The position numbers and the translations under genes are program-made. From Methanomassiliicoccus sp. (lineage in GTDB: Archaea; Thermoplasmatota; Thermoplasmata; Methanomassiliicoccales; UBA472), in contig SPCU01000007.1 of NCBI GenBank assembly GCA_004525545.1, positions 1-33,632 on the forward strand: a stretch of 33,632 bases of DNA, given 5' to 3'. Numbering within the stretch: position 1 is the stretch's first letter; every line of letters starts with the position of its first letter. Positions 3,134-20,120 of the stretch are shown piece after piece. Below the pieces are notes generated by a model. The model was not told the DNA's origin. It saw only the letters and a program-made list of their open reading frames with translations, and made no database searches.

Positions 3134-6100
3134 TTGAATATTAAACAGGTAATATCGAGGGGATCAAACATGGAATGCACTAAGGGATCACTAACATGCG
3201 CATTGATCGCAGCGATTATGTTGATATCCGTCGTTCCGGCGCTCGCACCGGGGGCGGCAGGGGCGGGACCGCTTCCCGCCTGGAGCACTTATACGATCTA
3301 TAGTGTGGATGACGTAGGGAAATATTCCTCCATTGGACTGGATTCCAACGATTTCGTGCACATCAGTTACCACGACTCGACAAACGGCTATCTGATGTAC
3401 ACGACCAATAGGAGCGGCGTCTGGACCAACATCGCTCTGGAGACGGGGGCATACGCCGGGCAGGAAACGTCCCTGGCCGTCGATGCCAATGATCACGTCC
3501 ACATGGCCTATTACAACTACCCGAACAGCAATCTCAAGTACGCCACCAACGAAGGCGGGGGCTGGGTCAAGACCGGCATAGACACCGCCGGGGACGTGGG
3601 GCGGTTCGCCTCCCTAGCCCTTGATTCGATCGGCAACGCTCACATCAGTTATTATGACTCCACGAACGGTGACCTCAAGTACGCCACCAACTCCGGTGGT
3701 AGCTGGGTCGTGTCCGTCGTCGACAGTATCAACGACGTGGGCTGGTACTCCTCCATTGCGGTGGACCATAACGACGTCGTTCACATCGCCTATTACGATA
3801 ACACCAACGGGGACCTGCGCTACGCGACCAATCCAGGCGGCGTTTGGACCACTACGTCCATAGACACCGCAGGGACGGTAGGCGTGTATTCCTCCATTGG
3901 TGTGGATTCCTTGAACAAAGTGCACATCTGCTACTGGGACGCCATGACCGGATTCCTCAAGTACGCCACCAACGAAGAGATCGCTTGGAGCATCGAGCTG
4001 ATCAGCGACACGGCCATCAACGGGATCTATACCGATCTCATCGTGGACGAGAACGATGTAGTGCACATGGTGTTCTACGATTCACTGAACGGGGACATCT
4101 GGTATGCCAATGATGCTTGGGACGGATGGACCCTCGGAGCGGTGGACACCACTGGCAACGTGGGCCGATATCCCTCCTTGGCCATCGATTCCCTGAACAA
4201 CGCCCACGTCACCTACTACGATGTCACCAACATGAACCTGAGATACGCGCACCAGGTATTGGTGGCGCCGACCATCCCCCTGGGGCTCATGGCGGCCGCC
4301 GGGGACGACCAGGTCACCCTGAGCTGGACCGAGCCGACATGGGACGGTGGATCTCCCATCACCGGGTATAAGGTATACCGCGGAAGCGAAAGCGGTGCGG
4401 AGACCTTGCTGACCACCGTCGGCGACGTTAGATGGTACGAGGATACCACGGTGGTCAACGGGGAGACCTACTGGTACTACGTGGTGGCAGTGAACGCCAT
4501 CGGCGAGAGCACCGAGTCCAACGAGGTCTCGGTCATACCAATGGCCTCTCCCGCGCAACCTATGGATCTGCAGATCATCCCTGGCAACGGCCAGGCCATG
4601 CTCACCTGGGACGCGCCCACCGATGATGGCGGTTCAACGGTGCAGTATTATGTCCTGTATCGCGGTCAGATCATTGGCGGGGAGACGCCCCTGTTGGCCG
4701 TCTACGGGTCAACATCCTTCCTGGACGCGGGATTGATCAATGGGGTCACCTACTGGTATTACATCACCGCTGTCAACGCGGTCGGGGAAGGGGCCGCGTC
4801 CAACGAAGTGTCGGCCGTCCCGATGACCCAGGCCTCCTCTCCAACTGACCTGCAGGCGATCGCGGGCTTGGACGACATCGGCCTAAGCTGGTCGCCTCCC
4901 GCATCCACAGGCGGTTCGGTCATAACCAACTACGAGATATATCGGGGTGTGACCAGCGGCAACGAGTCGCCACTGATCACCATGGGCAACGCCACCACCT
5001 ATCTAGACCCAACGGTTGAGTCAGGGGTGAGTTACTACTATTATGTCACCGCGGTGAACGGTGCTGGTGAAAGCGTTGCATCCAATGAAGCGTCGTCGGT
5101 GATCGTGATTCCCCCGTCCTCACCATTGTCCTTGATGGCAATGGCCAGTGACAGATCGGTATCACTGACCTGGTCCGCTCCGTCGCTGGACGGAGGTTCC
5201 GCGGTGACCGGATATGAAGTACATCGCGGTAATGCTAGCGGTGGGGAAACGTATCTGACCACGGTCAGCGGCACGAACTACACCGATACCGGATTGGAAA
5301 ACGGCACGGAGCTCTTCTATGTTGTCAAGGCCGTCAATACTGCGGGTACGGGCTCTGCATCCAATGAGGTATCTGCGATCCCGGCAGCCGTCCCTTCCGC
5401 GCCATATGACCTGCAGGCTTCAGCCGGCCCTTCGAGCATAACCCTCACTTGGACCGCCCCGACGGACGACGGTGGGTCACCCGTCATCGGCTACATGGTC
5501 TACCGCAATGAGGAGTCCGGCGGAGAGGAACTGCTGGCGACCATCGGTGCGGTCACCATATATCAGGATGACACGGCGCAGGTCGGACAGGAATATTGGT
5601 ACTACGTCAGAGCGGTCAACGTCCTGGGCGAGGGGCCCGCCTCCAACGAGGCCACCACCATCATCCTGCTGGTCCCCTCTGCGCCTCTAGGATTACAGGC
5701 GGTCGCCGGAGATACCATGGTGTTCCTGAGCTGGACCTCCCCGTCGGAGGATGGAGGCACGGTCATCACAGGATACGAGATCTTCCGTGGCAACGTCAGC
5801 GGGGAGGAGACTTATCTCACCACCGTCACTAGCACGAACCATACCGACAGCGAGGTGCAGAATGGAGTCACCTACTTCTATTATGTCGTGGCCATGAATT
5901 CCGAAGGGGCTGGGGTGGCTTCCAACGAGATCACCGCCATGCCCATGGCCGTTCCCTCGAACGACTCGGTGCTGATCGCGGTAGCCGGGGACTCCCAGAT
6001 CGAACTGGCCTGGACCGCTCCGTCCGACGAAGGTGGCGTGCCTATCTTAAGTTATGTCATTTACCGTGGAACGGAGGAAGGCAGCGAGGAGTTCCTGGTC

Positions 6101-7219
6101 GGGACAGGGGACGTCCTGAGCTTCATCGACGCTGGGTTGTCCAACGGCCAGACCTACTGGTACTATGTCACCGCGGTCAACCAGGCCGGGGAGGGTCCCG
6201 CTTCCAACGAGATCTCTGCGACCCCGTCAAGCGTGCCTGGCGCACCCCGGTCCATGCAGGCGTTGGCTGGAGCGTCGGTCATCACCCTGACCTGGCTGGC
6301 CCCGGAGAACGACGGGGGCTCCCAGATAACCAACTATCAGGTGTATCGGGGCATGCCAGGGGAGGAGGTTCTACTGAGCACCGTGGGCAGTGTTCTGACC
6401 TATGCCGACTCCGCCGTAGAGGTGGGGCAGGAATACTGGTACTCCGTGGTGGCGGTCAACTCCGCAGGTGCGGGAGCCATGTCCGAAAGTGCCTCGGCGA
6501 TCATATTAGGCACGCCTTCCGCACCGCTCGGCCTGGAGGCCATCAGAGGACAGGACTTCGCGGTCCTGACATGGGAAGCCCCAATGGACGACGGAGGATC
6601 GCCCATCGTACTTTACTCCATCTACCGGGGTACGGAAAGCGGCGGGGAGGAGCTCCTGGTACATGTGGGCGATGTGCTGAGCTTCATGGACATTGAGGTG
6701 TCAGCCGGTTCCACTTACTGGTACTATGTCACCGCCAACAACTCTGCTGGTGAGGGCGAGGTCTCCTCGGAAGCGAGCGTCTCGCTGCAGTCGGTCGCCT
6801 CCGCCCCGAGCGACCTGGTCGCCGTGCCTGGCGATGGGATTGTCCTGCTGAACTGGACCACCCCGTCCGACGATGGCGGCGTTCCGATAACCGGCTACAA
6901 GGTGTTCCGGGTGAACGAGAGCGGCGAAGCGGTTCTGGTGGCCACCGTAACCAGCGCAGGTTACATGGACGAGGGATTGATCAATGGGGAGGCTTACGCG
7001 TACTTTGTGGTTGCGACCGACGCCATCGGCGACGGCGCTCCCTCCGAACCGGTCATCACCACCCCACAAGCCCCCGAGGAGGATCAGTTCGATTGGGTCC
7101 TATGGCTGCACATAATCCTTCTGATCGTCGCGCTGGTCCTTCTGACCTACTACTATGTGAAGCGCAAGAAGGAGGAGGACGAGGGATCGGAGAAGGAGGG
7201 AGGGGAGAAGGTCCAATAA
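3134..7219 (+). CDS. Secreted/surface-anchored protein: 7 propeller-like repeats, 10 fibronectin type III domains, C-terminal TM anchor
   Basis: Signal-like N-terminus 'ALIAAIMLISVVPALAPGAAGA'; seven ~47-aa repeats 'YSSIAVDxNDxVHIxYYDxxNGxLxYAT'; ten ~94-aa repeats 'PSAPxxLxAxAGxxxxxLxWTxPxxDGG...YWYYVxAVNxxGEGxxSNE'; C-terminal 'WVLWLHIILLIVALVLLTYYYVKRKKEEDE'. Confidence 0.93.
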   Translation: MNIKQVISRGSNMECTKGSLTCALIAAIMLISVVPALAPGAAGAGPLPAWSTYTIYSVDDVGKYSSIGLDSNDFVHISYHDSTNGYLMYTTNRSGVWTNIALETGAYAGQETSLAVDANDHVHMAYYNYPNSNLKYATNEGGGWVKTGIDTAGDVGRFASLALDSIGNAHISYYDSTNGDLKYATNSGGSWVVSVVDSINDVGWYSSIAVDHNDVVHIAYYDNTNGDLRYATNPGGVWTTTSIDTAGTVGVYSSIGVDSLNKVHICYWDAMTGFLKYATNEEIAWSIELISDTAINGIYTDLIVDENDVVHMVFYDSLNGDIWYANDAWDGWTLGAVDTTGNVGRYPSLAIDSLNNAHVTYYDVTNMNLRYAHQVLVAPTIPLGLMAAAGDDQVTLSWTEPTWDGGSPITGYKVYRGSESGAETLLTTVGDVRWYEDTTVVNGETYWYYVVAVNAIGESTESNEVSVIPMASPAQPMDLQIIPGNGQAMLTWDAPTDDGGSTVQYYVLYRGQIIGGETPLLAVYGSTSFLDAGLINGVTYWYYITAVNAVGEGAASNEVSAVPMTQASSPTDLQAIAGLDDIGLSWSPPASTGGSVITNYEIYRGVTSGNESPLITMGNATTYLDPTVESGVSYYYYVTAVNGAGESVASNEASSVIVIPPSSPLSLMAMASDRSVSLTWSAPSLDGGSAVTGYEVHRGNASGGETYLTTVSGTNYTDTGLENGTELFYVVKAVNTAGTGSASNEVSAIPAAVPSAPYDLQASAGPSSITLTWTAPTDDGGSPVIGYMVYRNEESGGEELLATIGAVTIYQDDTAQVGQEYWYYVRAVNVLGEGPASNEATTIILLVPSAPLGLQAVAGDTMVFLSWTSPSEDGGTVITGYEIFRGNVSGEETYLTTVTSTNHTDSEVQNGVTYFYYVVAMNSEGAGVASNEITAMPMAVPSNDSVLIAVAGDSQIELAWTAPSDEGGVPILSYVIYRGTEEGSEEFLVGTGDVLSFIDAGLSNGQTYWYYVTAVNQAGEGPASNEISATPSSVPGAPRSMQALAGASVITLTWLAPENDGGSQITNYQVYRGMPGEEVLLSTVGSVLTYADSAVEVGQEYWYSVVAVNSAGAGAMSESASAIILGTPSAPLGLEAIRGQDFAVLTWEAPMDDGGSPIVLYSIYRGTESGGEELLVHVGDVLSFMDIEVSAGSTYWYYVTANNSAGEGEVSSEASVSLQSVASAPSDLVAVPGDGIVLLNWTTPSDDGGVPITGYKVFRVNESGEAVLVATVTSAGYMDEGLINGEAYAYFVVATDAIGDGAPSEPVITTPQAPEEDQFDWVLWLHIILLIVALVLLTYYYVKRKKEEDEGSEKEGGEKVQ

Positions 7220-14063: not shown

Positions 14064-15194
14064 ATGGGATACGAAGAAATATTTCCACCCGTAGATAGCA
14101 AGTGGCATGGAAATGCCGCAAAGCGATTTGCAAGCCCCTTTGTGGATAACCCACATGACCGCATAGACGTGGACCCGATTATCTTGTCCAACGCCGCTGT
14201 GTCATGTGGCTATACTATAAGGGACTTCTATGAAAAGCCTGAGTTGGGTATACACTGCGTCGGCTATATCTCTCAACTATTTGACCTGCTACCAGTTACA
14301 CACTGGTTCTTTTCGTTACCGTGGGTCACTGAATTGGGTCTGAAGCTGGTCTACAAGGAGACCTTGCCGCCGATTCCTACCGGACCGATATATTCGGACC
14401 CGGAAGACATCGACAAGATGATCGTACCCAGCAAGGAAGAGCTGATAAACAAGACAGGGACTCATGCGACTGTACCTCTGTTCTACAAGATCTATGACTA
14501 CGTGGCGAAGAACCTTCCCATGACCTTGGTGCCGATCTCATATGGTTTCGACCTAGTGGGCGCGGCAGCTGAGATGGTGGGTGTGGAGAACTTCATCATG
14601 TGGACCTTCACCGAGCCGGAAGCAGCTAACAAGCTGGTTCGGAAGTACACCGACACCGCCGTAAATGGCGCTGAGGCGTTGGCCGACAAGTACGGTATGG
14701 CGATGTTGATCGTCGGGTCCGTGCTGGCCAACAACGATATCTTCAGCGACGAAACGGTCGAAGAGTACTCTGTGAAGAACATGTACTACTATGTGGACCA
14801 GTGCTTCAAGAGGGGCGCCGGACCTCAGGTGTTCTATCACCTGTGCGGTAACCATGAGACCGACTACAAGCTGTTCAAGGACGGCCTGATGTGGTCCCCG
14901 TTCACCGTGATACACGCTGGTTACCAGGGCAGGAACCCGTTCCCGTCCGGTCTGCTGAAGGAGACCTTCGCGGACAAGGCGACCTGTATGGGCTCGGTAG
15001 ATACCAAGCTTATGATCGACCCCAACCCGAACAAGGTCTACAACCAGGCAAAGGAGCAGTTGCTCGCTGGCCGTGACTCTAAGAAGGGTTACATCCTGGG
15101 TACCGCCTGTGAGACCCCTCCGTACACCCTACCGGGACAAATGTTGGCCTTGGTCAAGGCGGCTAGGGACTTCGGTACCTACGGAACCTGGTGA
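14064..15194 (+). CDS. Uroporphyrinogen decarboxylase (URO-D) superfamily protein, MtaA/MtbA/CmuA-like
   Basis: 'VFYHLCGNHETDYKLFKD' HxCGN plus C-terminal 'ILGTACETPPYTLPGQMLALVKAARDFG' match the His-x-Cys...Cys zinc-site layout of MtaA/CmuA-type methyltransferases. Confidence 0.85.
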   Translation: MGYEEIFPPVDSKWHGNAAKRFASPFVDNPHDRIDVDPIILSNAAVSCGYTIRDFYEKPELGIHCVGYISQLFDLLPVTHWFFSLPWVTELGLKLVYKETLPPIPTGPIYSDPEDIDKMIVPSKEELINKTGTHATVPLFYKIYDYVAKNLPMTLVPISYGFDLVGAAAEMVGVENFIMWTFTEPEAANKLVRKYTDTAVNGAEALADKYGMAMLIVGSVLANNDIFSDETVEEYSVKNMYYYVDQCFKRGAGPQVFYHLCGNHETDYKLFKDGLMWSPFTVIHAGYQGRNPFPSGLLKETFADKATCMGSVDTKLMIDPNPNKVYNQAKEQLLAGRDSKKGYILGTACETPPYTLPGQMLALVKAARDFGTYGTW

Positions 15195-15204
15195 GGTGAA
15201 AAAA

Positions 15205-15654
15205 ATGCAAGTAACTATACCAGACAACGTTAAGGAACTGATTGCGAAGAGGGGCCTGAAGGAGTCCGACGTCTTGGATGTCGTGAACACCGCTGCCCAG
15301 ACCAACCACTACCTGAAGAAGGGAACTGATGGTCTGGCCAAGAAGGTCATCGGTGACCTCACCGTGTACGCTTTGTGCGACCTTTCTGGCCAAGGCACTG
15401 CCGTGGTCAAGAGCGCCTACGCTCACAAGATGAAGCTGGGCAAGATCGTCAACGTCATGGGCGAGAGCGAGTGGAAGTCCGTCGACAAGGGACACGCCAT
15501 AGCAACCGGCCACGTAGAGATCGAGTACATGACCGTCAAGAGGAACGGTCCCGCTCTGGTCTGCCCGGCCTGCAACGAGGCATGGGTCGAGGAATACCTC
15601 GCCACCAAGACCTTGGCTGCCGCAGAAGGTCTCTTCGAAGCGAAGCGCGCTTAA
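15205..15654 (+). CDS. Small CxxC protein, DVU_1557-family-like C-terminus
   Basis: C-terminal 'GHVEIEYMTVKRNGPALVCPACNEAWVEEYLATKTLAAAEGLFEAK'; strong RBS (GAGGTGA) 10 nt after the upstream stop. Confidence 0.65.
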   Translation: MQVTIPDNVKELIAKRGLKESDVLDVVNTAAQTNHYLKKGTDGLAKKVIGDLTVYALCDLSGQGTAVVKSAYAHKMKLGKIVNVMGESEWKSVDKGHAIATGHVEIEYMTVKRNGPALVCPACNEAWVEEYLATKTLAAAEGLFEAKRA

Positions 15655-15664
15655 AACATTTTCA

Positions 15665-15698
15665 GGCCGCTAAACGCGGCCTTTCCTTTTCATTTTTT
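15665..15698 (+). terminator. Hairpin plus T-rich terminator
   Basis: GGCCGC-TAAAC-GCGGCC then TTTCCTTTTCATTTTTTT. Confidence 0.8.
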
Positions 15699-15783
15699 TC
15701 CAATGTGCGCGAGCGCCGTCCATTACTTGGCAAAAGTAGAATAGTGCCGCATGCCATTCACGTAAATTATTCCGGTGAACAAT

Positions 15784-17151
15784 ATGAGCGATATCATTGG
15801 TCACACTAACAGTCTCTGCCCCAAATGCCTGAAGACCGTCCCTGCCACCAAGGTCGCGGAGGACGACAAGGTATACCTGCTGAAGGAATGCCCAGAGCAC
15901 GGCACGGAGAAGGTGCTTATCTGGAGGGGCGTGGCAGATTACGAGGACATGAAGAGGTACGCGGCGGTGCAGTCAAAGCCCCTGCGTTTGGCCGTCAAGG
16001 AGGACAACAATTGCCCGCAGATATGCGGACTGTGCCCCGACCATGTTCAACATACCTGCCTGGTGGTCATGGAGATCACCAATGGCTGCAATCTGAAGTG
16101 TCCAGTGTGCTTTGCCAGTGCCAATGAGCGATACAAGTTCAGCCCTTCTATCGAGATCATAAAGGGCATGTACCAGACAATGCTGGACTATGTGAATCAC
16201 CCCATTTGCGTGCAGATCAGCGGCGGTGAGCCGACCATTCGTGATGATCTGCCGGAGATCGTCCGCATGGGCAAGGCCATGGGCATTGATCACATCGAGG
16301 TCAACACCAACGGCATACGATTCGCCGAGGACATCGAGTTCCTGCAGACGATCAAAGAGGCTGGTGTCGACTCGCTTTACTTCTCGTTCGACGGATTGCA
16401 TGGTGACATATACAAACAGACCTGCGGCCGTGACATATTAGCTCAGAAGCTCAAGTGCATCGAGAACTGCGAGAAGGTGGGCATGGGCGTCACCTTGGTG
16501 TGTGTGGTCTCTCCCAACATCAATCTGGACCGGGTCGGCGAGGTCATCAACTTCGCCAAATCCAAGGTCCCGACCATCAAGGGGGTGCACTTCCAACCGA
16601 TATCGTACTTCGGCCGCTTCCCCATCTCTCCCAAGGACGAGGACCGGGTCACCATACCCGATCTGTTGAAGGCCATTGAAGAACAGACCAACGGTGAGCT
16701 CATGGTGGACAGTTTCATTCCCACGTCCTGCTCCAACATCCACTGTGATGCCAAGTCGATGTCGGTGGTCATGGAGGACGGTTCGCTCTTCCCCCTTACC
16801 AGCAGGGCATTAGGTCCTCCTAAGGAGACCAATGCCATCGCCACCAAGACCAGGACGGAGATCTCCGATCTGTGGCGCTTCATCGAAGATTCGCTGAAGG
16901 TCGAGGACGAGGGTGAGGAGGTCAACGAGTGGGGGTCCTTCGTCGACCGGGCCAAGACCAATTATCTGACGGTGAGCACCATGGCCTTCCAGGATGCTTG
17001 GACGTCAGAGACGGAGCGTTTCCGCAACTGTTGCATTCACACTGTGACACCAGATGGAAAGCTGATACCGTTCTGCCTGTTCAATATCAACTCGCAGGAA
17101 GGCAAGACCCTTTACCGTCATGAGATGTGGTCAAAGTACAGTGAAAAGTAA
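15784..17151 (+). CDS. Radical SAM protein with N-terminal rubredoxin-like module (Tes/MJ0619/TrsS-like)
   Basis: 'LCPKCLKTVPA...LLKECPEHG', 'CPQICGLCPDHVQHTC', radical SAM CX3CX2C 'CNLKCPVC', 'ISGGEPTIRDDLPEIV', C-terminal 'CCIHTVTPDGKLIPFC'. ATG 15784 preferred. Confidence 0.92.
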   Translation: MSDIIGHTNSLCPKCLKTVPATKVAEDDKVYLLKECPEHGTEKVLIWRGVADYEDMKRYAAVQSKPLRLAVKEDNNCPQICGLCPDHVQHTCLVVMEITNGCNLKCPVCFASANERYKFSPSIEIIKGMYQTMLDYVNHPICVQISGGEPTIRDDLPEIVRMGKAMGIDHIEVNTNGIRFAEDIEFLQTIKEAGVDSLYFSFDGLHGDIYKQTCGRDILAQKLKCIENCEKVGMGVTLVCVVSPNINLDRVGEVINFAKSKVPTIKGVHFQPISYFGRFPISPKDEDRVTIPDLLKAIEEQTNGELMVDSFIPTSCSNIHCDAKSMSVVMEDGSLFPLTSRALGPPKETNAIATKTRTEISDLWRFIEDSLKVEDEGEEVNEWGSFVDRAKTNYLTVSTMAFQDAWTSETERFRNCCIHTVTPDGKLIPFCLFNINSQEGKTLYRHEMWSKYSEK

Positions 17152-17156
17152 GAAAC

Positions 17157-17185
17157 GGGGGCAAGCCCCCAAAATATTTTTTTTA
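17157..17185. terminator. Hairpin plus T-run between convergent genes
   Basis: GGGGG-CAAG-CCCCC followed by AAAATATTTTTTTT. Confidence 0.7.
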
Positions 17186-17187
17186 AA

Positions 17188-17505
17188 TTATCTGGAGTTT
17201 CTCTTGCCGAACTGATTGTAATAGTTCCCCAAGATATTGTTCATGTAACTGGCCAGGTACTTTTCACCGTACTTGTTCTTGGTGATGACCTGGTTGATGG
17301 GGAACTCGGTGTCGCAATGCGGGCATCGTGCATATTTACAGTTCTGACTGGCAAAACGGCAGCCGCGGCAGGCGATGGCCCGGGACTGCATGAGGCTGAA
17401 TAGCTTTCCGCAGTTAGGGCAATCGAACCGCCTGGTGGTGTTCATCAGTTCAGGGGTCACTCCAGCCCTTTCCAGCTCCGGTGTCAGCGGCATGTTCTTC
17501 CTCAT
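17188..17505 (-). CDS. Multi-cysteine zinc-ribbon protein
   Basis: 'FDCPNCGKLFSLMQSRAIACRGCRFASQNCKYARCPHCDTEFPI', seven Cys in paired knuckles. Confidence 0.75.
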   Translation of the reverse strand: MRKNMPLTPELERAGVTPELMNTTRRFDCPNCGKLFSLMQSRAIACRGCRFASQNCKYARCPHCDTEFPINQVITKNKYGEKYLASYMNNILGNYYNQFGKRNSR

Positions 17506-17569
17506 CCCGCGTAACCACGCTCTTAATATATTTCTTTTCCCCCGTTTACGTTTCTATAAGACTTTATCG

Positions 17570-18343
17570 CTACTCCAGTTCCTTTCCATGTGCCTCCATC
17601 TCTGGAGGAAATATTACCGACCAGTGTAGGAATGGGCGGAAAGGGTGGGAGGAAAATGAATCGGTGGCCTTCATACCCGCCAACAACCTATCGATGATCT
17701 TTGGGGAAATGGCCATGACCAGCTGGTCATCTGGTACAAGTCCCCACATCCGGTCCCCCACGCAAGGTATGTCCATTACCATATCCTCACCCGCAATGAC
17801 CTTGGCGATTGCGGAGCAGACCGAGGATTGACCGGCGATGGTTCCTCGCAGCACCCGCCCTTCCGCGTATTCGTACCCCAGCAGCACCTTCAAGGCCTGC
17901 CCCGGGGTCATATAGGCGACCACCGCATCTGGCTCCACTGGTATCAGGTCCAGAGGGCCCATTAGAAGGGCGTTGTACCTATGCCCTTCGTTGCCCAACA
18001 TGAATATCTCGTCCTGCAGGGCCTTTGCCGCCTCATCATCCTTGGTGAAAGTTCTATTCAGCTCTCCTTTGACCAATCTCTCCGGTGTCTGGCTCATTCC
18101 TAGACAGGCCAGGCCCCATCGGCACTTCAAACTCTGGGTGGTGGATACGCATACACCATCCTCTCGATAATGTCGAGCCAGGGCCGCCATGTGGCAGGTG
18201 GCCGTCGAACGCAGGTTGCGCCCCCCCTGAACCGCCAAGGCATCGGAGGCCTTCTCGAACAGCTTGACCCCAATGGGATAGGTCCCTAGGTTCAATAGTG
18301 AACGGAACTCTCTGGCCTGTCTCGCCCGCTCCACATCTGGCAT
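17570..18343 (-). CDS. DUF169 family protein
   Basis: 'LLNLGTYPIGVKLFE', 'CHMAALARHY', 'KCRWGLACLGM', 'VEPDAVVAYMTPGQALKVLLGYEY', 'SVCSAIAKVIAGEDMVMDIPCVGDRMWGLVPDDQLVMAIS' match the DUF169 pattern. Confidence 0.85.
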   Translation of the reverse strand: MPDVERARQAREFRSLLNLGTYPIGVKLFEKASDALAVQGGRNLRSTATCHMAALARHYREDGVCVSTTQSLKCRWGLACLGMSQTPERLVKGELNRTFTKDDEAAKALQDEIFMLGNEGHRYNALLMGPLDLIPVEPDAVVAYMTPGQALKVLLGYEYAEGRVLRGTIAGQSSVCSAIAKVIAGEDMVMDIPCVGDRMWGLVPDDQLVMAISPKIIDRLLAGMKATDSFSSHPFRPFLHWSVIFPPEMEAHGKELE

Positions 18344-18409
18344 GACCCACTGATGTCCTTTTTAATTTAATAGCCCTGCGGTTTGAAACAAATATATGCT
18401 CATTAGAGT

Positions 18410-19873
18410 ATGTGGACGAAGATGAGCATCAAGAGCCGCATCACCATCGCTTACGCCCGTACCAAGCTCTCCTCTCGGAAAGTGGCCGAAGGCGTTGAGA
18501 ACCCCTTGCACGACTGGGTTGAGCTGAAGGTGCGAAACACCTTCAAGCAGGACCCGGAATTCAGAAAGGCATTGGGCAGAAGTTCCTTGGACGAGATAGA
18601 TCGGAAGGTCTTCGAAGAATACCAGCTGTATCGATTCCGCAAGCAGTTGGCATATGTGATGCAGAACAGCTACTACTATCAGAAGAAGTACGGTGAGGCC
18701 GGTGTGGTCCCCGAGGCGATCAGGACAATGGATGACCTGAACAAGGTGCCATTGACCGAACCGGACGATCTGGCCGAGGAACCCTTCCTTTTCCTCTGCC
18801 AATCACAAAGTAAGATAGCTCGCACCTTCTCGACATCTGGAACGTCCGGAAAGAACAAGCGCCTGTTCTACACCCGCGACGATCTTCTGAACATCATCGA
18901 CTCCATTGCCGCAGCCCTGCGTTCCGCCGGGCTTCTAAGCAACGAGACCCTCCATATCATGTTCCCGGCGGTGGTGGCCTGGGACCCCAGCCTGATGCTT
19001 GAGGGGGCTTGCAAGGTGGCCGGCCTAAAATCGGTGGTATGTTCCGAGGTGGACGTTGATGAGCAGATGAGGGTCATGAAGGAGAATCAGGCCCGGGTGA
19101 TAATCGGTCTCACATCCTTCATTTATCGAATCACGATCCTGGCCCGGGAGAAGTACGACCTCCGTTCTTTGGGCGTCAAGGCCATCATCTGCTCATCCGA
19201 GCCGCTCTCCGAGGCCGTGCGCCGGGAGATGGAAGGGGCCTGGGGGTGCAAATGCCTAAGCCAGTATGGCATGACAGAGATGGGATTGGCCACCACGATC
19301 GAGTGTCAAGAACAAGCAGGATTGCACATCAATGAGGCCGATTTCATGGTGGAGGTCATTGACCCAGACACCGGGAAGCGCCTTCCACCGGGCAAGGAGG
19401 GAGAATTGGTATGGACCTCTCTGAGCTTCCAAGGCTCACCTCTTTTGCGTTACCGTTCCTACGATATATCGCATTACATCGAACCGCCCTGCAAATGCGG
19501 TCACTCCACCGTAGGCAAGATCGGCAAACCCAAGGGGCGTCGGGACTCAGCGACGAAGATCGGTCTGGGAAAGCATATTTTCCCGGTGCTGTTCGATGAA
19601 GCCATAATGAATGTCCGCGGGGTGCTCAACTACCAGCTGGTGCTCGATAAGCCCTCCTTCAGGGACCGTCTTCATTTCACAGTGGAGTTCAACGGGGACA
19701 TAGAGCAAGGTAAGGTGAATGTGCTGGAGGCCATTCTGGCATTGGAGGAGATCAAGAGCGGCCTGGACAATGACCTACTAGATCCCATTGAGGTGGAGAT
19801 GAAGGAGGTCTCCAATGATTTCACCCCCAAGATGAAGCCCATTGTTGACAAGAGACGTAGGTATGATAGTTAG
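18410..19873 (+). CDS. Phenylacetate-CoA ligase (PaaK)-like adenylate-forming enzyme, DVU_1553-like
   Basis: P-loop 'TFSTSGTSGKNKRLFYTRDDL', 'QYGMTEMG', 'PGKEGELVWTSL', 'LLRYRSYDIS'. Confidence 0.88.
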   Translation: MWTKMSIKSRITIAYARTKLSSRKVAEGVENPLHDWVELKVRNTFKQDPEFRKALGRSSLDEIDRKVFEEYQLYRFRKQLAYVMQNSYYYQKKYGEAGVVPEAIRTMDDLNKVPLTEPDDLAEEPFLFLCQSQSKIARTFSTSGTSGKNKRLFYTRDDLLNIIDSIAAALRSAGLLSNETLHIMFPAVVAWDPSLMLEGACKVAGLKSVVCSEVDVDEQMRVMKENQARVIIGLTSFIYRITILAREKYDLRSLGVKAIICSSEPLSEAVRREMEGAWGCKCLSQYGMTEMGLATTIECQEQAGLHINEADFMVEVIDPDTGKRLPPGKEGELVWTSLSFQGSPLLRYRSYDISHYIEPPCKCGHSTVGKIGKPKGRRDSATKIGLGKHIFPVLFDEAIMNVRGVLNYQLVLDKPSFRDRLHFTVEFNGDIEQGKVNVLEAILALEEIKSGLDNDLLDPIEVEMKEVSNDFTPKMKPIVDKRRRYDS

Positions 19874-19976
19874 ATCGCATCTGGGCAATGATCGTTCTCA
19901 AATAATGATCATAAGGTCGGTTTGAAATCTCCTGAAAAACAGATATACTCTTCGAGAGAATAGAATATAGATTACT

Positions 19977-20120
19977 ATGGCCGAAGAAAAGAAAGGCAAG
20001 GTAGAGGAGACCGCCGAAAAGAGCGGCGAGGTTGTTGGAAAGGGGCTGAAGAAAGGCTGGGGAGCAGTCAAGGATGTTGGAAAAGGGGTCAAGAAAGGGA
20101 TGGGTGGAGAAGAAAAGTAA
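19977..20120 (+). CDS. Putative 47-aa Lys/Glu/Gly-rich microprotein
   Basis: ATG..TAA translates MAEEKKGKVEETAEKSGEVVGKGLKKGWGAVKDVGKGVKKGMGGEEK; followed by a hairpin terminator; below the ORF track length cutoff. Confidence 0.65.
   Translation: MAEEKKGKVEETAEKSGEVVGKGLKKGWGAVKDVGKGVKKGMGGEEK

Follow-up and report, generated by a model that had tools for sequence, protein, structure and literature searches.

Radical S-adenosylmethionine (SAM) enzymes of the Tes type join unreactive carbons. For the tetraether synthase GDGT-MAS, the closest characterised relative of the protein described here, the metallocofactor ligands are known and the substrate carbon is reported to bind a sulfur of one cluster; its C-terminal cluster with the labile Met439 borders the lipid pocket (PMC9433317). 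Zeng et al. 2022 listed 456 bacterial 'Tes homologs' at permissive thresholds (E below 1e-50, identity above 20%) and proposed them as membrane-lipid candidates (PMC8941075). A related system, the bacterial TrsS/DVU_1551-DVU_1557 neighbourhood, is known to NCBI annotation through NCBIfam models of its bacterial pieces and is uncharacterised: literature searches revealed no functional paper on DVU1551-1558, on DUF169 with radical SAM, or on uroporphyrinogen decarboxylase-like (URO-D) and radical SAM proteins in Methanomassiliicoccales, and met with TrsS itself solely in a list of selenoproteins. Here we analysed a stretch of 33,632 nucleotides (contig SPCU01000007.1, assembly GCA_004525545.1, Methanomassiliicoccus sp.; hereafter the window), which carries an archaeal TrsS module of four genes, encoding a URO-D protein, a small protein of 149 amino acids (aa), TrsS and a PaaK-like ligase, with a zinc-ribbon protein and a DUF169 protein as accessories. 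The cassette is found again in distant archaea and in many anaerobic bacteria, where some of its partners differ, and probably represents a real, uncharacterised pathway. Its URO-D variant and the fused small protein appear undescribed in the literature searched.

The radical SAM protein of the window scored 529.7 bits on the TrsS model (NF045646) and thus passed the curated cut-off of 490 bits, but failed that of the Tes model (NF045702; 383.3 against 450 bits). The Methanosarcinaceae copies reached 464-493 bits on NF045646 and were mostly just under its cut-off. Because the Tes model gives TrsS proteins high scores, part of the list of bacterial Tes homologs in PMC8941075 may be TrsS. A tree calculated with a quick method from 89 TrsS rows (60 bacterial) and 7 Tes rows separated the two families with a support of 98 on either side (Shimodaira-Hasegawa-like approximate likelihood ratio test, SH-aLRT), grouped the window sequence with bacterial TrsS and placed archaeal TrsS in one clade (support 96). 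A further Methanosarcinaceae sequence of the Tes family (L181, 446 aa) has a very long branch and possibly belongs to another family (compare MA_1114, PMC8941075).

Structural alignment of the predicted TrsS model with GDGT-MAS (7tol) showed TM scores of 0.83/0.77 and 34% identity. The ligands of the rubredoxin site (C15, C18, C39, H42), the N-terminal [4Fe-4S] cluster (C80, C84, C87, H90), the radical SAM cluster (C105, C109, C112) and the C-terminal [4Fe-4S] cluster (C324, C419, C434; assigned by alignment) are invariant in 66 TrsS sequences, as is M403, the counterpart of the labile Met439 of Tes. TrsS has an additional invariant cysteine, C95, compared with Tes. At position 319, five residues ahead of C324, the presumed cluster ligand, Methanomassiliicoccales have Cys, Methanosarcinaceae Met and many bacteria Cys; one bacterial TrsS (L123:9914-11296) has an in-frame TGA there and is a selenocysteine candidate, and other sequences vary (C, M, A, G). 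The genome of the window itself contains a radical SAM match with one in-frame TGA (L003; G000:C142:7917-8387), which may reflect a frameshift, a pseudogene or selenocysteine.

Gene neighbourhoods of up to 19 kb were collected from 35 related genomes, 80 named loci found by contig search and 13 extra Methanosarcinaceae loci. A locus was called well flanked when at least 5 kb were available on each side of TrsS, and a partner was counted if found within 7 kb. In Methanomassiliicoccales URO-D, small protein, TrsS, zinc ribbon and PaaK-like gene were together in 25/25 well-flanked loci, and in Methanosarcinaceae URO-D, small protein and PaaK were near TrsS in 16/16. The four core genes of Methanosarcinaceae have a single order on one strand, with gaps mostly of 23-71 bp (six loci measured), and their flanking genes are unrelated to those of Methanomassiliicoccales. 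The PaaK-like gene of Methanomassiliicoccaceae is separated from the rest by a few kb, and three rearranged loci (L047, L083, L085) still keep the set together. A further instance of the set, complete with DUF169 and zinc ribbon, was found on one contig that carries the label Nitrososphaerales (L087); the genome of this contig has no methyl-coenzyme M reductase. As no further TrsS was found among 200 sampled genomes of that class, transfer or misbinning of this locus is possible. The zinc ribbon, found in 6/16 well-flanked Methanosarcinaceae loci besides all of those in Methanomassiliicoccales, is a strongly associated accessory. DUF169, which the original prediction had included in the block, is a weakly associated, peripheral one: it accompanies TrsS in 22/25 well-flanked Methanomassiliicoccales loci versus 0/16 in Methanosarcinaceae, occurs otherwise only at L087, and is often lost.

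Several additional genes were observed beside archaeal TrsS loci. A large MEDS-PAS sensor (PF14417; L046:10714-13884) stands directly upstream of a PaaK-like gene, and similar large open reading frames (ORFs) fill the same gap in L040, L048 and L052 of the Methanomassiliicoccaceae; this suggests regulation by a methyl-compound signal. In six Methanosarcinaceae loci (L089, L091, L165, L166, L175, L177), a block of aldehyde dehydrogenase and short-chain dehydrogenase genes runs convergently to the TrsS genes. DUF5714 occurs in most of these six and was confirmed with Pfam in L168. An HgdB-type protein (PF06050) with a BcrA/HgdC-type activator (PF01869) lies beside TrsS in one archaeon and one bacterium (L091:1160-3087, L128:3711-6131).

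The module genes are present or absent together. Among 44 good-quality Methanomassiliicoccales genomes, TrsS was found in 28; all of these and G037 have the small protein, and 27 of them and G037 have the PaaK-like gene. Fisher tests, which ignore kinship, gave p values of 7e-11 for TrsS and the small protein, 1e-9 for TrsS and PaaK and 2e-7 for TrsS and DUF169. The missing TrsS of G037 is probably an assembly gap, because its URO-D and small protein are on one contig and its PaaK and DUF169 on another. Absences are mostly in one family (f2), within which G022 and G054 have the module, and two (G029, G031) are in another; DUF169 is absent from TrsS-positive G014, G022, G026 and G043. Distances of TrsS and PaaK correlated with a Mantel r of 0.90 overall, 0.88 in archaea and 0.75 in bacteria (0/999 shuffles), a correlation that comes partly from shared ancestry. 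The functional linkage proposed in the original prediction is therefore borne out by conserved gene order in two archaeal groups, joint presence and absence, and congruent TrsS and PaaK distances; both the neighbourhood comparison, with co-occurrence far above chance, and the phylogenetic profiling that it had suggested point the same way. URO-D, small protein, TrsS and PaaK almost certainly act in one process.

The small protein consists of two pieces. Its residues 1-78 correspond to the final 80 residues of the diclust flavoprotein (NF045663 positions 679-757), and residues 90-147 match DVU_1557 (NF045645) with 28.5 bits, under the cut-off of 60. Since the same two pieces are encoded by two adjacent ORFs (about 86 and 60 aa) in some bacteria that lack a nearby aldehyde oxidoreductase (L100, L106), the archaeal protein is a fusion, or the bacterial pieces are the result of a split. 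The earlier label of a small CxxC protein does not name a conserved feature: the window protein keeps one of the two CxxC motifs, the orthologues L054, L057 and L071 keep neither, and the motifs were lost one or two at a time across Methanomassiliicoccales. Invariant are instead G17, Y55, Y72, H74, W90, Y108, R113, P116, E141 and K147. A catalytic disulfide or an obligatory zinc site is unlikely, and a docking or carrier role would fit better. The AlphaFold model (predicted local distance difference test, pLDDT, 93.9) showed a BrnT-like fold of the N-terminal domain (3u97; probability 0.99, TM 0.65 by target, E 0.098), which is a likeness of fold only, and the fold search returned nothing below E 0.001.

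The URO-D protein matches MtaA-family models far below their cut-offs (TIGR01463, 46.1 versus 235.4 bits; MtaA, 34.4 versus 400 bits). Its alignment to the MtaA structure 4ay7 showed that the His-x-Cys and distal Cys of the zinc site are kept, and H259, C261 and C349 are present in all orthologues and paralogues aligned. A second URO-D paralogue occurs in the genus of the window (L154, L155, L156) beside genes that by eye resemble MetF/MetV, methyltetrahydrofolate methyltransferase and RACo; we read these neighbours as one-carbon metabolism, perhaps a methyl branch unusual for the order. Corrinoid proteins near TrsS were confirmed with Pfam in L047, L175 and, with a RACo-type activator, L110, and related corrinoid-type ORFs are found in four Methanosarcinaceae loci (L172, L173, L176, L177). 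The best curated match of the PaaK-like ligase is DVU_1553 (NF045666; 265.9 bits, cut-off 300), and it is also under the cut-offs of PaaK and coenzyme F390 synthetase. Alignment to 4r1l revealed a retained phosphate-binding loop and YGMTE-type motif. Since F390 synthetase is also related to this ligase, the group that becomes adenylated may be something other than a simple acid.

The positions of the module in the window are listed below. All seven ORFs were found where the original prediction had placed them, between a metal ABC transporter (PF01297, PF00950) and pdxT (TIGR03800).

Genes of the TrsS block in the window
Feature	Position	Strand	Evidence
URO-D superfamily protein, MtaA/CmuA-like, 376 aa	14064..15194	+	PF01208, 88.7 bits; predicted Zn-dependent methyl/thiol transferase
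Two-domain small protein, 149 aa	15205..15654	+	PF24292 (DUF7479), 40.4 bits; matches to NF045645 and NF045663
TrsS, Tes-like radical SAM protein, four predicted metallocofactors	15784..17151	+	NF045646, 529.7 bits
Zinc-ribbon-like protein, 105 aa	17188..17505	-	Sole family match MJ0042, below cut-off
DUF169 protein	17570..18343	-	PF02596, 122.6 bits
PaaK/DVU_1553-like adenylate-forming ligase	18410..19873	+	NF045666, 265.9 bits (cut-off 300)
ORF of 47 aa, lysine/glycine-rich	19977..20120	+	Similar ORFs in the same genus only

The starts at 15205 and 15784 are backed by orthologues; the TrsS frame is also open from a GTG at 15775. The microprotein of 47 aa, which had been included in the block, is genus-specific and outside the conserved module, with similar ORFs in L060, L065, L066 and L069, all of the same genus. 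Both it and the ABC transporter are lineage-restricted and were dropped as module members. The source genome is a metagenome-assembled genome (MAG) of 1.6 Mb, 98% complete, with methyl-coenzyme M reductase, and the named genomes with the closest relatives of its radical SAM gene are Methanomassiliicoccales MAGs. Elsewhere in the window (3134-7219), a protein of 1361 aa with nine fibronectin type III repeats is probably a surface protein.

From these data we propose a mechanism that we consider plausible, if still tentative. The PaaK-like enzyme would adenylate the carboxylate of a small substrate, probably giving a coenzyme A (CoA) or other thioester. A SAM-derived radical of TrsS would then abstract hydrogen from an unactivated carbon, and, as in tetraether synthase, TrsS might keep this carbon attached to a sulfur atom of the C-terminal [4Fe-4S] cluster until a new bond, C-C or C-S, has formed. 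The 149-aa protein could serve as docking or carrier protein, and the URO-D zinc site would donate a methyl (alkyl) group to a thiol or accept one from it, a corrinoid protein probably being its partner. The place of URO-D would be filled in bacteria by a SAM methyltransferase of the DVU_1556 family. The pathway would yield a small metabolite or cofactor in modified form, of use to archaea and bacteria alike, rather than an archaeal tetraether. The earlier idea that an acyl-activating enzyme, a radical enzyme and a methyl- or thiol-handling protein act on one substrate is compatible with the catalytic residues retained in the sequences; a tetraether lipid as that substrate is unlikely. A more far-reaching reading, held somewhat more tentatively than the mechanism, is a previously unknown small cofactor or metabolite made in methanogens and anaerobic bacteria by radical coupling at the unactivated carbon of an acyl-type substrate and methylated by URO-D or by the SAM methyltransferase, respectively.

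Several points weigh against this proposal. Conserved ligands do not fix the reaction, and TrsS could catalyse a desaturation, methylation or epimerisation instead of a bond coupling. The link to corrinoid proteins holds for a minority of loci. In the window the other strand encodes the zinc ribbon and DUF169, and PaaK forms a separate unit; PaaK also tracks pdxT within Methanomassiliicoccales. The co-occurrence statistics, finally, are tied to phylogeny and not independent.

An NCBIfam scan of an Acetobacterium locus revealed a molybdopterin aldehyde oxidoreductase (AOR), diclust flavoprotein, DVU_1557, DVU_1556 methyltransferase, DVU_1555 C-GCAxxG-C-C protein, TrsS, DVU_1553 ligase, XdhC-type factor, DVU_1551 nucleoside triphosphate (NTP) transferase and a CobC-like phosphatase. 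Of the well-flanked loci of the main bacterial set, 31/31 have the small protein and 30/31 have PaaK near TrsS. The reading of the window as an archaeal version of this TrsS/DVU_1557/DVU_1553 neighbourhood with an MtaA-type URO-D is supported by a TrsS above its cut-off and by partners that are best matches, though below cut-off. At the thresholds used, bacteria have the DVU_1556 methyltransferase without URO-D and archaea URO-D without DVU_1556, an exchange consistent with non-homologous replacement of the methylation step. In four Firmicutes loci (L105, L112, L142, L153) two TrsS paralogues stand in tandem without AOR and, where the contig allows, precede or enclose the PaaK-like gene.

A catabolic or salvage route, in which TrsS forms an aldehyde by rearranging or coupling a substrate and this aldehyde is oxidised to an acid (by AOR in bacteria, by aldehyde dehydrogenase in some archaea) and converted to a CoA ester by the ligase, is a less likely alternative. 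It draws on a molybdenum AOR of the D. gigas Mop type, which 27/31 well-flanked loci of the main bacterial group carry, on an aldehyde dehydrogenase near TrsS in L087 and the six Methanosarcinaceae loci named above, on a sigma-54 regulator adjoining one bacterial locus, and on the MEDS sensor beside PaaK in L046 with the similar large ORFs of other Methanomassiliicoccaceae. However, the main bacterial group of 52 sequences, including all AOR-linked loci, forms one clade (support 99), and bacteria without nearby AOR (L100, L106, L110, L123, L128 and the tandem-TrsS loci) diverge outside this clade, so that the AOR link looks derived and small protein, TrsS and ligase look like the older core. 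Searches for MoCoBD_1 returned no match in the window's genome or in ten other archaeal TrsS genomes, and no aldehyde dehydrogenase was identified beside the Methanomassiliicoccales module.

It is less likely again that the bacterial TrsS set prepares AOR, with XdhC-type and MocA-like partners, and that an analogous set in archaea matures another client. An XdhC-family factor and the DVU_1551 NTP transferase do lie beside bacterial TrsS, but XdhC and MocA alone would account for ordinary molybdenum cofactor handling. The bacterial oxidoreductase matches the D. gigas AOR, for which structures are solved (1sij, 1vlb). That enzyme carries ordinary molybdopterin cytosine dinucleotide, which speaks against this reading. 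TrsS loci without AOR are, moreover, basal in the tree; AOR maturation as the core role is disfavoured, the AOR link being confined to one derived bacterial clade.

Still more unlikely is a membrane-lipid enzyme, for instance one that modifies the backbone or chains of archaeal tetraethers. Besides the kinship with Tes, a UbiA gene and a gene that by eye probably encodes a GGGP synthase lie nearby in Methanomassiliicoccales, butanetriol and pentanetriol lipids are known in M. luminyensis, and unusual tetraethers have been reported in this species (cited in PMC10673518). Yet TrsS is about 20 + 40 residues shorter than Tes in the linker that joins the radical SAM domain to the C-terminal cluster, which would probably remove much of the lipid-binding cap (PMC9433317, PMC11186832). 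The 60 bacterial TrsS sequences of the tree mostly have the same core partners, 9/15 TrsS-positive Methanosarcinaceae genomes gave no second Tes-family match at E<=1e-60, and outside Methanomassiliicoccales no lipid gene was recognised as a recurrent neighbour. A tetraether is an unlikely substrate because TrsS occurs in bacteria and in Methanosarcinaceae without detected Tes and because its linker is shorter; a tetraether or butanetriol role was disfavoured by the same occurrence.

That the genes are neighbours merely through conserved gene order in a young archaeal order, as the adjacency of pdxT and its neighbours to PaaK in many Methanomassiliicoccales might suggest, is very improbable given the same contiguous core between entirely different flanks in Methanosarcinaceae, the association of TrsS, PaaK and small protein in bacteria and the rearranged loci that keep the set together, although for DUF169 such a reading is possible.

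A widespread sister family of Tes with fixed partners is a target for new anaerobic chemistry, and the present evidence does not link TrsS to lipids. Comparison with the archaeal form reduces the shared core to three or four proteins, so that its function is easier to test.

Compared with Tes/GDGT-MAS (MJ0619, 7tol/7tom), TrsS keeps every metallocofactor ligand and the labile Met, but falls under the Tes cut-off into a separate clade and differs by the shorter linker, the extra C95 and the Cys/Sec/Met position before the cluster ligand. The URO-D protein shares fold family and zinc ligands with the methylcobamide:thiol methyltransferases MtaA, MtbA and CmuA (4ay7), whereas it scores far under the cut-offs of these families. 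Similarly, the ligase has the adenylate-forming fold and motifs of PaaK (4r1l) and coenzyme F390 synthetase, but lies below both cut-offs, with DVU_1553 as the nearest curated model. The closest described counterpart is the bacterial TrsS/DVU_1551-DVU_1557 neighbourhood (NF045645, NF045646, NF045663-NF045669), with which the archaeal locus shares a TrsS above cut-off, a DVU_1557-like domain, a diclust tail domain and an adjacent DVU_1553-like ligase. In contrast to the bacterial loci, it lacks AOR, XdhC, NTP transferase, C-GCAxxG-C-C protein, DVU_1556 and the full diclust flavoprotein, and has instead URO-D, zinc ribbon, DUF169 and a fused small protein.

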